From: Xiphias gladius
Taxonomy: Eukaryota; Chordata; Actinopteri; Istiophoriformes; Xiphiidae
Assembly: GCF_016859285.1 (NCBI RefSeq)
Contig: NC_053412.1
Location: 3,088,789-3,152,788, forward strand
Length of the DNA: 64,000 nucleotides
Direction: 5' to 3'
Shown: in pieces, positions 5,721 through 53,833 of the stretch
How positions within the stretch are numbered: position 1 is the first letter of the stretch
Layout: each line of letters opens with the position of its first letter
Position numbers and translations under genes: made by a program
The notes under the pieces: generated by a model
Databases searched by the model: none
Seen by the model: the letters and a program-made list of their open reading frames with translations, nothing else
Told to the model about the DNA's origin: nothing

Positions 5721-30196
<24,476 letters not shown>

Positions 30197-37000: not shown

Positions 37001-37500
37001 NNNNNNNNNNNNNNNNNNNNNNNNNNNNNNNNNNNNNNNNNNNNNNNNNNNNNNNNNNNNNNNNNNNNNNNNNNNNNNNNNNNNNNNNNNNNNNNNNNNN
37101 NNNNNNNNNNNNNNNNNNNNNNNNNNNNNNNNNNNNNNNNNNNNNNNNNNNNNNNNNNNNNNNNNNNNNNNNNNNNNNNNNNNNNNNNNNNNNNNNNNNN
37201 NNNNNNNNNNNNNNNNNNNNNNNNNNNNNNNNNNNNNNNNNNNNNNNNNNNNNNNNNNNNNNNNNNNNNNNNNNNNNNNNNNNNNNNNNNNNNNNNNNNN
37301 NNNNNNNNNNNNNNNNNNNNNNNNNNNNNNNNNNNNNNNNNNNNNNNNNNNNNNNNNNNNNNNNNNNNNNNNNNNNNNNNNNNNNNNNNNNNNNNNNNNN
37401 NNNNNNNNNNNNNNNNNNNNNNNNNNNNNNNNNNNNNNNNNNNNNNNNNNNNNNNNNNNNNNNNNNNNNNNNNNNNNNNNNNNNNNNNNNNNNNNNNNNN
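37001..37500. other. Assembly gap, exactly 500 N
   Basis: A run of 500 N. A round length usually means a placeholder gap of unknown true size. Repeat sequence borders it on both sides. Reading frames drawn through the N run are artefacts. Confidence 0.98.
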
Positions 37501-45500: not shown

Positions 45501-48500
45501 TCTTTGAAATGTCACAGAATAGTGAGTAACGCCAATTATAACGTGGCGATTTCTTCAAATTGCTTTTATGTCCAACCAACTGTCCAAAACCCAAATGAAT
45601 TCAGTTTACAAAATTATAAAACAGTGAATATCCGCAGGTTTTCACATTTAAGAAGCCGTGCCTAAAACTGTATCAATGCTCTGATCACATTTAAGCAATG
45701 AGCCTCTCTTTATGTTTAAAACATCAGCAGAGAAAACAGAAAACATACTGGTCCCCTTTCGTGCTTCACCTCTTGTCCCTCAATTAAAAGCTGGTGGTAT
45801 GAATTCAAACACGGAGACACATTTTCGCTCTCATTTTCCCTGTTGTTTTTGTACTCGGAAGCTCCCTGTGGGAATTTGTGCAGCACAATAACACACCAGT
45901 AAACTAGAAAAGATATTGGAAAGCTGAAAAACGTAACAAAAACGAACTCTCCTGACCGTTTGAGCAGGTTGGTGGAGGGGATGAGGCCGGCGCAGGCCAT
46001 GTTGCTGGGCAGTTTCTTGGCCTGCCACCAGAGGGCGTCCGTCTGGTCCACGATCTCCAGGACGTCGCCCTTTCTGAAGCTCATGCCGGCGTCGGCGCAG
46101 GGGATGGCCGGGTCCTGCTGAGGGCTGTAGTCGGCCATGGCCCGCACGTAGAGCTAACGCCAGACAAGTTTGTTTATGGCGATGGTATGTAGGAGTTTTT
46201 ATGTGGTAAAAGAATGAGGTAGGTATGGATGATGATTTACCATCGTCTGGTTGTGGACCGGCCTTTCTGTGATGGGAACAACCTTAAACATGATGGTGCC
46301 CTGCGACCTCGCTTGCTGATTGTTTGTAGAGAAGCGACACGGGGTAATTAGCACATGTGCATGGCTCACAGCAGACAACGGTATGCATATTAAAGCATCG
46401 TTCACTGTGAAACTTAGACTAAGACGCTGTGGTGCATTCTGCTTTTAAAAACAAATTGTTGAGGAAGACAGGACACAGAAAACACAGGCGTCAGTGACTC
46501 AGAGACCAATCACCTACCACAACTTGGATAACTTGCTCAGGCTCCATCCCGTTCACAGGAAAACCATTCACCTCTATGATCCTGTCCCCTGCATGGAGCA
46601 GACCTACAAACAAACACACATAAATACAAATGAAACTAAAAATTAGGCTTTGAAATTCCCATTTTCCCTTTATTATGACCTTGAAAACGTGTCTTTCAGT
46701 GTGAAACAGAGATACCTATATTCCGAGTCCCTTTTAAGTGACGAAAACATGGTTATTTCTAAATTTACAGAAAAACAAAGAAGTAACGACTCATATCATG
46801 TCTTTTGTCTACTAGTTTTTGCCTTACTTATTATATAACATGACCGAAACTAGGTTAGAAAGTACAGATAAGATTAAAAATTTTACATAATCGACAGGAA
46901 ACAGCGGAATTTGAGCCCTGAGGATTATTCATGACCTTTGGGAAGAGTATGTAACATAATTATCAAAGCTCAAGGGTCCACTTACAAGCTTTCAGAGCTT
47001 CATCTCATGGTCTTCTTAAGTGGACGTAGCGGGTTCAGCTGTCATTACCTGACGAGTGTTGAACTTTGATCGTGTTATAAAGTGAAGTTTCCCACCTAGG
47101 GCATGTGAGGAGCCAGGTTCTTTCGCTGAATGGAGATGGTGAGATGCAGTTGAAAGCTCTGAAAGCTACTAAGTTTACCTTTGAGCTTAGGTTATTTTGC
47201 TAAAAAACAATGAAAGTCATGATTTATAAGTTTCTAAAACGGTAGCAGTCTCTGAGTTGTTGTGTTGTAGTATAAACATGTCATTGGTAAAATAAAGTTC
47301 TTTCACCTCCTATTTCACCTTCCAAAACTGGAATATACAGTACACCGACAACATCCAACACTATCTCTGGTAGGAAAGGCTCACCACTTCGATCAGCCAG
47401 CCCTCCATGGATCACCCGAGCGATGAAAATCTCCCCGGTGATCTCGTTTCTCTTTATAGTCGCTCCCTGGAAACAAAAAGAGTTAAAAACACTGAATAAA
47501 TAAACCTGGTATAATGTGTAGGTCAAATCGAATCACACATATGATGAAGAAAGAATGAAGCTGATGGAATCTGTGGGAAGCAACGACAGGATGTACAAAC
47601 CTGGGGGTGAAATGGAAAAAGAGGTTGGAAGGTTTAATTCATGACAATTCAGGCACAAACAAAACGATGGCACATGAATGCTGGTGAAGTTCCTGGAATG
47701 AAGGCTGGTGTGGAAATATGAAAGAATGAAGTGGTCCTTCTCCTACATAAACAACACAACACGACGGACGAAAACCACAAGAAATGTCAACTACCGCTGT
47801 GCATGTTTGCAGGTCAGCCACTCTGCGGAGACGGCTTGAAAGGACCCAAGAGGGCCATTCTTTGGACACTCTCCGGCGTGTCTCATGTTGCCTTCTTTCT
47901 CTTCTTCTTCCGCCGGTTTGAGCAACCTCCTTTCACAGCGTTGGACGTCTCCTTGGGCTCATCTAGCAGACCGTTGGTCAGAGGATGCTTGGACGCCTGG
48001 AGATCAGCGTGGATGTGCCTCCTCTGTGGTGAAGGGGCATTTTTGGTTTTTAGGGTAGGTCGAGGTGATCTGCGGCAAGATGCAGTCAGACAGCTGGTGC
48101 CCTGAGAGGTGGAGGGAGCATCCTGGGAGCTGCTGAGGGAGCAGGAGGAGGAGGAGGAGGAAGGAAGTGAGGGGAAGGAACGTCTGGATTGGTGAGCCAA
48201 TGACTGACACTGCCCTTGAGTCTTCATATTTTGGCTTTTCTTAAGTGCACTGTCTTGCCTTGTTGCTGCAGGATTTGGGGAGTTGATCTCAGTCCTGGTG
48301 GCGTCAAGGAGCATCTGCAGCCGGTCCACCACCTGACTGAGGAGGACTAAGGCGTGCGAGTTGTCCTGCACCGTGTCCGACATTCGTTCGGTGGCGGCTG
48401 CCATCTTCTCCCCCAGGAGCTTGATGTCCTTGGTGCTGTTCTCCATGGAGCTGGTGGCCAGATGCACAGTCGTCCTCAGCTCGTCCAGACTCTCCTGCTT

Positions 48501-51500
48501 GGCGAGCTCCACCGGCGGCCCCGGAGGCATCTCCACCACACGGCGAGGGCGCATGGGGCTCGGGGGAGCTGTGCGGCTGCGAGGGCTTTGGCTTCGGAGC
48601 CGTGGAGGCAGGCCTGGCTGGAGGTAGTCGTCTATGTTGGAATAGTAGGGTTCAGTAAGGCAGGGGGGAGACATGGTCCAACACCAGGATGTGGGAAGCT
48701 TGGATGGGAGATTGGCAGACTCTCCTGTTCCATCCTCACTACCACTGTCTCGCTCTTCTATGATGTTGTCTCCAATGAGAAAACAGAAATTGTTAATCCA
48801 CGAAAAACCACAAGTAGATGTGATGAATTATGGATGAAGAGGCGCAACGACGAATGATGAAAAACCAACAGGGCCTTGTTTCCTGAAAGCATCTTGGATC
48901 GTAACTGAAGACGCTCTTAAAAATGACCGTAGATTAACAAGTGGATTTGAAGAAGCTCCTGAACCTGCTAGACGAACCTCAAACGACAGATTTTATGGCT
49001 GTATCTTTTTTTTCTATTTTATTTATGGTTTGAGTCAGAGTTCGTTTCCACCAGATGAATCTAAGTCCAATATTTCTTCTCTTTTAGCTCTTTTTTTGGT
49101 CTCAGTTAGTCTTTAACTGTGTTTCTGCTGTTTCTGCCGCCGGACAGTTAAACAATGAACTGAAACTCATTATAAAGCTCCATAAAACCAAGGGGAGCAA
49201 AAGATTCAGCTCGTAATTTTCTGACATTGTTTCCACATTATCATTTGACAAATTGTTATTATAAAAACGTTGATTACAGCTGCTATAGATATGTAAAGTT
49301 ACTTAGAAGTATATTCAGCGTCATCTTCAGCACCACGAAAAACCCAACGTGAAGTAGCTTTCAACAGCATGTGCTGTGCACTTGCTCTTGAGTACTGCTT
49401 TGGAAAATGCGTGAAGCAACTTAAGAGCGTTTTTAACCTCTAAGATCTATCGTTACCCGGAAACGAGGCCCAGATCTTTTCTTACCAATCAGAACAGAGC
49501 TGTAGACCGAAGGCGCAGAGTGGTTCAGACTTTGCTGCCAGAGCAGGTTGGTGTAGCAAACTCTACACTGGCTCATCGGTTTTCTACAGCACACCTGACA
49601 GTTACTCATCGGCTTATATCGAGGCTGAGGGTACGGCCGAGCCCCTGCTGGGTGATGCAGTGGTTCAGTTGGAGGGTAGCTGCCTCTCCGAACGCTACAA
49701 CACGATGAAACCTTGACATCCAGGCTCTGGCTCTCGGCAGCCAGGCTCTGGACCCCGAACGCGCCACCTCGTTGAATCATCTGCCGGGTCGGGCCCCTCA
49801 GGGTGTCCCAGTGACTGCGGATCCCCCCTCTGGAGCTTTTTGCACAGGGAGGGGAAGCGCTGGGCAGCGGCGGCCTGACTCCCTGGCGGTTGCAAAGCTG
49901 TGAGACAAGAGAGTCACTCAAAGGTAGAGGCAAATGCTCAACGCAGGCACTGTGGGATTGAGAACTTCCACTGGAAAAACACAAGGTTTAAAGATGGAAT
50001 ATCCGCTACGAAAAGTGGGATTGAAGCCAAATTAGTCGTCAGTACTTTCTGTTAAAAGAACTGAACAGTAAGACATACCGAAAAGACATAACAATGACTA
50101 ACGGAAGATATGCATGTTAAGAATTTTTCCAGAGATTGATAATAAACGAGTGTCAGATGTGTCCGAACTATTTAATTTTTTTTTTTTCTTAAAAAATCCT
50201 TCTCCTCCAGGGGTTTCTGCTGTTAGGAATCGTCTGTAGCATCCACAGACGATTAGACAAGTCAGAGATTCTAAAACTCAAACATCTGCTCCCTGCTGGA
50301 TGCAGACAGTTTGATTTATATATGGCAAGAAACAAACAAAAAAAAAAAACAACGATAGCAACAACAACAAAAAACAATAACTCTAATATTAAAATAAAAA
50401 TATAAAAATATACAGCCCTTCACTGTGGTGCCATTTATCTATCCAAACGTATGTGCTGTATTGCTCACAGTCAGACAAAACTTCTTCTTCTTCTTCTACA
50501 AATCATTAAAATAAATGATTCAACATTTTTCTAAAGAAATATGGGAAGCTTAAAGGGTCAGTTAACCCAAATCACACAATAAATCTTCCTACCTACCCCT
50601 TTTGTTATCTTGCCATGGTGATAGTTTTGATTTAATGTCACTTTTGCATCCAGCCAAATACAGTGAATTTACATAGGATGGAAACATTTCCAAACTGCAC
50701 TATTTACCAAAAGTACGCAGACACCACTGTCCCGTATCTAGGTCATATACTGTACATGGTAACCCCACGCAGACTACAGAAAATGTGTTCTAGTGTCTAG
50801 AGTGGTTTAAAGATGATCTGGATTTGATGTCAATGGGGCGAGAGGACTAGAGGACTGGACATTTAATATACAGTGTATCTGTGATTCAGTTAGGGCTGCC
50901 CCTAAAAGTTGATGATTCACGGAGTCATCAGTAATTTTGTCAGGCCAATCACTGTACTTTTTTTTTTTTCTGTACTGATACAACCTCCTCTCTACTTCCA
51001 TCCGCGGTGATGAACTCTTTGGCTGACAGCGCTGTGAGCAACAGTTTCTCTGACTGCGAGGAGAAGTGATGTTTTCGCATCACGGAGGATGAGCAACGGC
51101 ATTGAAACGCGAGTCTAACAGGCAAAACCCGAGACTAATGTGGGCTTGTCAGATGACTTTAGTGCGGGGTGGCACTAACTGGCCAGGGGAGTGAAAATAA
51201 ATCCTGATTCGAGGACAGCCCTAAGTACAATATTCTATGATCCAGGTTTACTTACTAGCTTTGAAACTGAGCTTTCCAACGTATCCCACGATTTTCCTCA
51301 ACAAGAGGCAAGGAAGCTGTTTTTGCGCCTTGTCTTCTTTTTAAAAAAATGTCTGGAATTGAGATTTTTACGTATGATCCAGTTGTAACTCACAAAAGCT
51401 ATTGTCATTAGAACCATTTCCACAAGAAATAGTCCCGATATGGACCTTAATGGCCTCGACTCAGAACTTTCTTGACCGTGGCTACTTCAAAAGAGTGAGA

Positions 51501-53833
51501 GTTCAAGAGAGAGAGTTCAACTAAACCTTTTGTGGTATGACTTCATGTTCTCAAGCCATTTTTATGCTCTGTGAGGTTTTTCCGATGGGTTTCCCTAATC
51601 CCAACAAACCTGTTTTTGTGAAGAGGGATTAAAAAAATAAAATAATTCATGTGTAGGAAAAGGGGTGATCCCATCAAAATGTGGCCTCATTCTCAGGTCA
51701 CGTAGTGCCTGAATACAGAGTTTGAAAAGGGCTTGTCAGTCGACTAAGGCCTGAAGAAGCTCTCCTGAACAATACTGCAGCACAAACCAAACTTCATTCG
51801 CAGTTTTTATAATTTAACAGTGCTTAAATTTTGAGTGACCAATGAGGAGGCATAAGCCGTGCAGCTCACCAGAGGCTGTTTGTTTTTGACCAGGCAGACA
51901 ATCCTGGTGGCCTCCTCATCGTCCGGCAGGTCTTCAGGCATCGGCGGCAGCACTGGCTCATAGTCCCTCTGGGCCACCGTATCATGAGCAGAGAGAAGAG
52001 CCTACAAAACACGCAGATCCGACAGATTTTTCACCTCAAACGGCAGCGTTGGTTGTAAAAAAATTAAAATGTACGTTATTGAAAATGAGGGAAATCAGGA
52101 CAGTTATAGAAGTCCTGTTAAAGATTTAAAGTTTTAAAACTTAAAAAAAAAAACAATCCCACATCAGCACTATCAACTGGTTTTCTGTTTCTCTGTACAT
52201 TATATATAGAAATGAAGAAATGAAAGAAATAAACACACAAACCCGGACGTGGTTTCTTACCTGCAGGTGAGGCTGTCGCAGGAGACGGTAGAGCTCTTTG
52301 GCCTCTTCAGAGCAGCCTGGTAACGCCCTGATGTCGATCAGCAGCTACACAGACGGAAGACCACATGTCCACCATTTAAAAAAAAAAAAAAAAAGAGACC
52401 TCTACAAAACTACCAGGAACAGGACGTTAATGTTATGGAACAAATCTGAGTGCAACCTGAAGTGAGAGTCCAGAAGCGTAGTCCAGAGCCGGAGCTGGGG
52501 AATCTCTCAGGTACCTCTGCAGACACTCATGAACCTGAAAACAGTGACATCAAATCATTAAAAACTCAATCAGAAAAGCAGTTATCGTATTTCCAGCAAG
52601 TAGTTGATTACCTTAAAGGAAAAATATATCCCCACACCCTCTGAGGCTGTTATATCTTATCAATTTTTGATGTTATTTTGTGATTAAGTGCTTTTCTTTT
52701 CCTTTTCCGTGAGCCCAGGTTTTCCTCAACCTGCCTCCTTTATATCCACTTTAATGACTGAAAGGATTTGCTACATTTAGAGAGGCAGTTGTGTGCACAT
52801 CCCATCCTATACTTAGGCCAGTACGCTGGATTTTAGCTCTCGAAAACCTTTATATGACAAAAAATGCAGTGTTTTTGCTTCCAAACTTAGCTGCGGCGAA
52901 AATATCTTTCTTTCACTTCCAAGGTTCATTTATTGAGTTTATTTACTGATCCAGCTGACATAAGACACACACATTGCGTACAACTTAACCCGGCAAACAC
53001 AAACACGTTAAGTTGCCTAGAAGGTTAAATATGAAAAAAATACACAATATATACAACAAAAGATGAAAGAAAGCAATAGAATAAGCACTAAAAAGACAAA
53101 TCCATGTATCAAGGAGGAACAATTACTGTGACTTATAACTTCAATTTCAACGTACACGTGGGCATGTGAGCATTGTATTAAGACAGACTTGGAGAAAATG
53201 TTAACCTGTCCTTTAATTCTGGCTCTTTTGTTTTCGGAAATTTGCGAACAATGTGCCGCTTTGGACCGTACAAGTGCGCAAGTCCCAAATGTCGCCTGAA
53301 AAACTAAAATCTAGGTCCTGTTCCCATGCAGGCGCAGGCTCTGCGGTGAAAATATCTTGATTTGACGTGACAACTGTGTTTGGTTACCTATTAACAGCAG
53401 AAAGAGAATTCATTAAACAGAAAATAAAATGTTATTTTTGCTGTTTTGCTGCGGAGTCAGCGTTGAAATGATGACTGATGTCAATATTTTGCCAGGAGCC
53501 AAATTAATGAACGAAAGTAGTTTTTCAGTCCTTGTAGAGCAGAGTGTTTTCAGACCTTGAGCAGCGACTGCAGCCAGGAGGCGTTCAACAAACTGTGGAG
53601 AATCTCTGCCCCATCAATGTCCTGGTTTACTGACTGCCTCACCTCCTCAATCACATCTGTCAGGATCTGACGCAGGCCTACGACACACAAAACACACACC
53701 AACGGGTAAGAAGAAAACTAAAGCAGTATTTGTACATCACAAAATGTCATAATAAACTAAACGTCCCCTGCTGACCGTGTTCTCCAAGTTCACAGTGGGG
53801 GTTTAACACCTGAGCCTCCACCGCCTGCCTCAT
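39798..53833 (-). CDS. mpp4: MAGUK p55 family member 4 (Mpp4), complete
   Basis: Twenty-one coding exons: 53776-53833, 53556-53677, 52457-52534, 52261-52344, 51870-52001, 47385-47466, 46518-46603, 46241-46315, 45957-46153, 45082-45140, 44926-44943, 44780-44821, 44623-44643, 44460-44474, 42914-42955, 42590-42763, 42435-42515, 42093-42186, 41272-41380, 40826-40960, 39798-39989. They join to 631 aa (human MPP4: 637). Domains: L27 pair (about 20-125), PDZ (about 146-233), SH3 (about 242-305), hook (about 305-420), guanylate-kinase-like (about 420-625). MPP4 over other MPPs is supported by [40 protein letters not shown] and [19 protein letters not shown]4 is a scaffold at photoreceptor synapses and retinal membranes. 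The start ATG at 53833 opens [10 protein letters not shown] behind acceptor TTTTTCCAG (53875); upstream exons would be noncoding. A different gene model sits in intron 5. Confidence 0.95.
44460..44943 (-). CDS. mpp4: mpp4 hook-region microexon cluster
   Basis: Four tiny exons of 18 (44926-44943), 42 (44780-44821), 21 (44623-44643) and 15 nt (44460-44474), followed by one of 42 nt (42914-42955). All begin and end in phase 1. They encode the acidic linker [30 protein letters not shown] and [13 protein letters not shown], between the SH3 and GK domains. The first four match human MPP4 in order and wording. Any subset can be skipped without a frameshift. Confidence 0.88.
45957..46153 (-). CDS. 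mpp4: mpp4 SH3 exon
   Basis: One 197-nt exon encodes most of the SH3: [14 protein letters not shown], a short specificity loop ([12 protein letters not shown]), [19 protein letters not shown] and [11 protein letters not shown]. It corresponds to human MPP4 VRAMTEYWPQEDPDIPC and DQNDALWWQARK. The donor reads ACG|GTCAGG, phase 2. Confidence 0.94.
46241..47466 (-). CDS. mpp4: mpp4 PDZ exons
   Basis: Three exons (47385-47466, 46518-46603, 46241-46315) carry the PDZ domain: [36 protein letters not shown] and [14 protein letters not shown]. The carboxylate-binding loop lies at the end of the preceding exon (KNKQPL) and the start of GATI. A MITE-like hairpin lies in the intron between the first two exons. 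Confidence 0.94.
46969..47185. mobile_element. MITE-like hairpin element in mpp4 intron
   Basis: Left arm 46969-47008 and right arm 47140-47185 are imperfect inverted copies sharing CTTTCAGAGCTT and CATCTCA. The middle carries no coding sequence. Size (about 220 bp) and structure suit a nonautonomous DNA transposon. Confidence 0.5.
47633..47638 (-). terminator. Candidate poly(A) signal of nested gene
   Basis: ATTAAA on the minus strand about 245 bases after the stop of the nested gene and 170 bases before the next mpp4 exon. It would end the nested transcript within the mpp4 intron. Confidence 0.35.
47883..50089 (-). CDS. Unrecognised nested gene, 460-aa coiled-coil protein
   Basis: Three-exon model inside mpp4 intron 5, same strand. 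Exon 1 (coding 50079-50089) gives ATGTCTTTTCG then GTATGT; exon 2 (49486-49970) follows TTTTTCCAG and ends ATTG|GTAAG; exon 3 (48769 to the stop at 47883) is 887 nt. Phases 2 then 1 match and the frame is open for 460 codons. Visible parts: a Ser/Pro/Arg-rich N-terminal half; a duplicated Cys motif, KPMSNCQVC and [20 protein letters not shown]; a predicted helix/coiled coil (about [12 protein letters not shown] to [13 protein letters not shown]); a Ser run; and a basic tail ending [10 protein letters not shown]. It cannot be an mpp4 isoform through the listed exons because mpp4 exon 5 ends in phase 0. I recognise no family. Exon 3 (ORF with ATG at 48674) is firm; exon 1 is the weakest. Confidence 0.6.
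50887..51228. mobile_element. hAT-like MITE remnant in mpp4 intron
   Basis: Starts TTAGGGCTGCCCC and ends AGGACAGCCCTAAG, an imperfect terminal inverted repeat seen in abundant short hAT-type elements of teleosts. About 340 bp with no transposase. I could not find a clear 8-bp target duplication. Confidence 0.5.
51870..53677 (-). CDS. mpp4: mpp4 L27-region exons
   Basis: Four exons encode the tandem L27 region and linker: [73 protein letters not shown], then [21 protein letters not shown]27 domains pair with other scaffold proteins. All junctions after the first are phase 0. Confidence 0.92.

Follow-up and report, generated by a model that had tools for sequence, protein, structure and literature searches.

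The stretch of Xiphias gladius DNA analysed here, 64,000 nucleotides (nt) long (contig NC_053412.1, C13:3088789-3152788; hereafter the window), carries on its minus strand a gene that we take to be mpp4; the names mpp3, mpp7 and abi2 below are putative in the same way. The L27 exons of mpp4 lie near 52340-51870, and its PDZ, SH3 and guanylate-kinase exons follow from 47465 downwards. Pfam reported L27, PDZ, SH3 and guanylate kinase on the MPP exons, with some pieces falling under the cut-off because exons were scanned singly. An intron of ~4.4 kb, bounded by ...CLVKNKQPL (51870) and GATIKRNE (47465), separates the L27 exon at 52001-51870 from the PDZ exon and contains, on the host's strand, an open coding unit. 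A preliminary description of the window had presented this unit as an independent three-exon gene. Sequence comparison shows that this coding unit is real and conserved; details at the 5' end of the model are doubtful, and both the exact gene model and the label 'independent gene' are provisional. The features of the locus are as follows.

51870-52001, minus strand: mpp4 exon, end of the L27C region; donor CTG/GTGAGC, phase 0, donor score 9.0

50079-50089, minus strand: exon 1 of the preliminary description (ATGTCTTTTCG), 4 codons, judged doubtful; donor score 5.9

49486-49970, minus strand: exon 2; donor ATTG/GTAAGA, phase 1, score 7.4; conserved tail

47883-48769, minus strand: exon 3 with the stop; acceptor 48769 or 48757, same frame, 48769 scoring better

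48282-48506, minus strand: conserved long helix or coiled coil, ~75 residues; 51% identity to the copy on contig C16

47883-47918, minus strand: Lys/Arg-rich C-terminus; counterpart on C16 is KKKKKK-stop

47633-47638, minus strand: ATTAAA polyadenylation-like signal, 245 nt beyond the stop

47385-47465, minus strand: following mpp4 exon; acceptor TTTCCAG/GGAGCG, phase 0

Much of what was first described exists as drawn. The pieces 50089-50079, 49970-49486 and 48769-47883 join into 460 codons ending in their own stop, ATTAAA is present at the given distance, and the flanking L27 and PDZ exons were located, placing the unit within mpp4 on the same strand. The heptad-like helical stretch, the Ser run and the basic tail are likewise present.

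A six-frame search of the whole 690.8-Mb genome with exon 3 (10 candidates scored) returned exon 3 itself and one relative, C16:27620209-27620673, with an expectation value (E) of 2.5e-14 and 39% identity. The relative, too, occupies an mpp-type intron, on the same strand, between ...CLVKNNQPL and GATIRRDE. The local alignment score of the two exon 3 sequences is 233, as compared to 106 for the best of 1000 shuffles, and among frame pairs the sense pair (233) is followed by a second best of 120. Over 222 aligned codons identity is 33%, and differences at codon positions 1, 2 and 3 number 109, 101 and 145. Within the coil, third positions take most of the changes (28, 20 and 46 differences over 78 aligned codons): 38 of the 78 amino acids are identical, while 2000 random placements of an equal number of changes gave a mean of 24.9 and a maximum of 35. 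The preliminary description had suggested checks for frame-breaking indels and for the ratio of nonsynonymous to synonymous divergence (dN/dS). Tried on the C16 duplicate, the first found the frame unbroken, and the second, by the Nei-Gojobori method (NG86) over the coil, gave dN 0.43 and dS 1.53, hence dN/dS ~0.28, with dS being rough at this divergence. Together, these comparisons demonstrate protein-level constraint on the predicted exon 3, and the order of its parts (a Pro/Ser-rich stretch, the coil, the Ser run and a Lys-rich C-terminus) is common to both copies.

Neither frame contains an internal stop. The C16 frame of exon 3 runs without a stop for 420 codons (C16:27618709-27622173, minus strand 1285-2547), ~70 of which lie upstream of the likely acceptor; none of 500 resamples reached this length (maximum 241). 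For the window frame, 314 open codons turned up in 2 of 2000 first-order Markov resamples of the GC-rich segment itself and in none of 500 resamples of the whole intron (maximum 269), making the length of this frame alone suggestive as evidence beyond chance. Open frames also run antisense over exon 3, of 168 codons (48351-48857, plus strand) and 127 codons (47722-48105, plus strand); they seem to mirror the coding sequence in sense, because minus-frame comparisons with C16 score at most 120 against 233 in sense.

For exon 2, of which we are less sure than of exon 3, the two copies reach a local score of 75, with 69 as the top score among 1000 shuffles, and the sense pair is the sole frame pair above 55. 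The C16 counterpart ends LWKKGLNQSAPSVFSPASRTG ahead of GTAAG, with the exon's final G opening a split codon; the exon 2 donor has phase 1 in both copies. In the tail before this donor, 10 of 15 amino acids are kept and the differences at the three codon positions are 3, 1 and 10 (dS not computable). Random placement of these changes gave a mean of 6.3 identical residues and a maximum of 11; since 11 exceeds the 10 observed, the tail alone is not decisive.

With respect to the encoded protein, single-sequence AlphaFold2 modelling of 88 residues predicted one helix spanning residues 2-76 (mean predicted local distance difference test score 91.4; the fifth model was poor, at 56.8). In agreement with the earlier failure to place the unit in a named family, exon 3 gave three weak Pfam-A matches below the cut-off (best E 0.16) and exon 2 none. 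Against PDB sequences the best E was 0.1, and 0.057 with a coil profile, all of these being weak; the chains matched by the profile are, as we take it, mostly helical or coiled-coil. Peptide patterns picked out 127 stretches in prokaryote genomes and 101 in viral contigs, among which there were no confirmed relatives. By eye, a possible short motif precedes the coil, RSRTAPPSP in the window (48555-48581, minus strand) and RAHTAPSSP in C16, which the alignment did not co-place. A transposon origin, which would predict further genome copies, was considered and not borne out: exon 3 was found in two places including itself, the C16 coil as a query in two places (3 candidates scored), and window exon 2 at itself plus one match at E 0.47 containing a stop (4 candidates scored), these repeat counts being lower bounds.

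With the L27C exon as a genome query, we retrieved six MPP3/4/7-type genes including that of the window. The two bearing the unit group together in an unrooted FastTree tree (support 1.000), separate from the remaining four, and share 70.5% identity over 166 columns, as opposed to 46-58% between either and the other four (for the C5 gene, which had no SH3 piece in the fetched stretch, identities rest on 97 columns). We had considered the C16 host to be mpp3; this was rejected, given its grouping with the window gene and the abi2 exon 1 nearby. That exon lies near mpp4 on both contigs in the same orientation:

28312-28719, minus strand: coding exon 1 of an abi2-like gene; 95% identical counterpart (42 residues) near the C16 mpp4

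Collectively, this fits C13 and C16 carrying a duplicated segment, which we infer to stem from the teleost whole-genome duplication. At the corresponding place, the introns of the four other MPP-type genes measure 572, 139, 16343 and 2408 nt. Searched by tblastn as 20-kb stretches that include the whole intron, these four mpp3-/mpp7-type genes (C9, C3, C5, C14) yielded nothing at E ≤ 1 with exon 2 or exon 3 from either copy as the query, and just short, scattered matches up to E 10. Judged by these four genes, the unit is not a general feature of MPP3/4/7 introns; what the two copies point to is an old, selected coding unit inside the host intron. As to the remaining layout of the window, positions 37001-37500 are a run of 500 N, either a gap or sequence that was withheld.

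The claim of three exons with good splice sites stands in part: exons 2 and 3 are conserved, whereas exon 1 has a modest donor and no counterpart that we recognised in the C16 copy. Its ATG is preceded by a purine (G) at -3 and followed by T at +4. The four-codon exon 1 as modelled finds little support. On a vertebrate donor matrix, the mpp4 donors score 9.0 (window) and 8.9 (C16). In the intron upstream of exon 2, ATG-led first-exon candidates number 8 in the window (at a cut of 5; best donor 6.8) and 6 in C16 (at a cut of 3.5; best donor 5.9); no shared or strong one was seen in either intron, although a very short exon could escape such a scan. The C16 exon 2 frame, followed back over 113 codons to the upstream stop, contains no Met, so that translation of exon 2, if it is coding, must enter from an earlier exon.

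Independence had been argued from the unit being out of phase with mpp4 splicing. This is true just for the acceptor at 49970 (phase 2), the mpp4 donor having phase 0. A second acceptor, 73 nt further on at 49897, has an equal score (3.6) and phase 0, and the frame stays open from it; C16, too, has open phase-0 acceptors, at 27622323 and 27622116. The phase argument hence does not exclude splicing from mpp4.

We favour the unit being an alternative 3' end of mpp4 over its being an independent nested gene, and give this reading of the sequence about an even chance of being right. The mpp4 L27C exon (donor 51870, phase 0) would be joined to exon 2 through a phase-0 acceptor near 49897 and then to exon 3, and the product would end at the Lys-rich tail, with an intronic poly(A) site. 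Such a product would keep both L27 domains and could still pair with Lin-7-type partners, while PDZ-SH3-GuK would be replaced by a Pro/Ser/Arg stretch (probably disordered), the ~75-residue coiled coil and the basic tail. It might act as an L27 adaptor severed from the membrane-scaffold domains or compete with the full-length scaffold. We favour an alternative 3' end because host and unit were retained jointly in both copies after duplication and because C16 leaves little room for a private promoter, just ~955 nt separating its mpp4 exon from the exon 2 frame. Further support comes from the lack of a Met in the C16 exon 2 frame and from the mpp4 donors outscoring every ATG-led candidate; the open phase-0 acceptors that this splicing would require exist in both copies, next to phase-2 ones.

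Several observations weigh against this interpretation, or against a firm account of exon 2. Homology between the two exon 2 sequences is modest: the pair reaches E 0.03-0.07, in a collinear place, when the six MPP stretches are searched by tblastn, and the C16 exon was absent from the matches at E ≤ 1 that window exon 2 gave across the whole genome. Before the tail, exon 2 is not significantly alike between copies (58 of 1000 shuffles reach the score), and its start is therefore uncertain. Open phase-2 acceptors, too, exist in both copies (49970; 27622153 and 27622219 in C16), and a matrix trained on 14 MPP acceptors scored the phase-2 site 27622219 at 9.4 as opposed to 1.4 for the phase-0 site 27622323. 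As two matrices give conflicting rankings, acceptor scoring decides nothing. In addition, the 1386 nt of C16 from the stop to the next mpp4 exon contain no AATAAA or ATTAAA; scanning for poly(A)-type signals yielded a single weak AGTAAA at 612 nt.

Those phase-2 acceptors, including the far higher score of 27622219 on one matrix, are what an independent gene on the same strand would call for, one that has a private promoter and opens with a short coding exon ending in phase 2 (the exact exon 1 first proposed may be wrong). We regard such a gene as a tangible possibility, if somewhat below an even chance. It gains from the ATG mini-exon of the window, which has a phase-2 donor and G at -3, from TATA-like strings that precede exon 2 in each copy (50322 and 51811 in the window; 27622620 and 27623260 in C16), and from a protein tail that resembles no MAGUK domain. 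Yet neither intron shows a shared or strong first exon, and the stretches of 810 and 840 nt that lead up to exon 2 are rich in AT (GC 0.35 and 0.38; observed/expected CpG 0.57 and 0.50) and contain no promoter island. Non-coding similarity between the introns is not significant either, with the best non-coding blastn match at E 0.21. Translation could instead begin within exon 3, with exons 2-3 forming a cassette or a partly untranslated unit and exon 2 serving as 5' untranslated region. In both copies exon 3 has its first Met ahead of the coil, and exon 2 similarity is modest, as this would predict; we nevertheless deem it unlikely, given that the protein likeness of the exon 2 tail is confined to the sense frame, that 10 of its 14 differences fall at third positions and that the donor phase is kept. 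Least probable of all, indeed very improbable, is that the unit is a decayed gene or a frame left open by chance where the intron is GC-rich: length alone can arise randomly, as the segment resamples showed, but the duplicate keeps the frame, the coil and the basic tail before the stop, the coil has a low dN/dS, and both frames are free of stops.

In the portions of PMC7662862 available to us, MPP4 in mice is a photoreceptor-synapse scaffold, MPP4-Lin-7 binding is mainly via L27C, and the interaction of MPP4 with PSD-95beta, which has an L27 domain, is ascribed to heterodimerisation. The proposed product, if spliced as we propose, would have the L27 domains in common with the MPP4/MAGUK p55 scaffold (L27-L27-PDZ-SH3-GuK) and differ from it in a new tail without PDZ, SH3 and GuK. 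The Drosophila varicose MAGUK locus makes products with and without two L27 domains, according to excerpts of PMC2414870, and is likewise one MAGUK locus whose products differ by whole modules; there the L27 domains vary, whereas mpp4 would exchange the PDZ-SH3-GuK half. As a coding unit entirely within a host intron, the unit resembles OMP, which is nested within a calpain 5 intron (PMC6549253, seen in extract), but it has at least two coding exons on the host strand, was duplicated with its host and has no demonstrated first exon of its own. In the excerpts of open-licence literature on MPP4 isoforms, splicing and nested genes, we met no description of such an mpp4 isoform or intronic unit; one may exist elsewhere. 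A possible report of an MPP4 nested gene, PMC1802077, proved irrelevant as far as its excerpt goes, the phrase referring to nested gene-specific primers and MPP4 being listed in a table.

We therefore suggest, at a little under an even chance, that mpp4 may be a two-product gene: one product would be a MAGUK scaffold, the other an L27 adaptor whose end, a coiled coil with a Lys tail, belongs to a non-Pfam family. Formed by exchange of the C-terminal half, this intronic 3' end would predate the mpp4 duplication in this fish lineage. Expression and origin of the unit are directly testable in fish RNA data. With a conserved unit in both mpp4 copies, the locus would encode a second protein, one that mpp4 knockouts, transgenes and antibodies would either hit as well or overlook.

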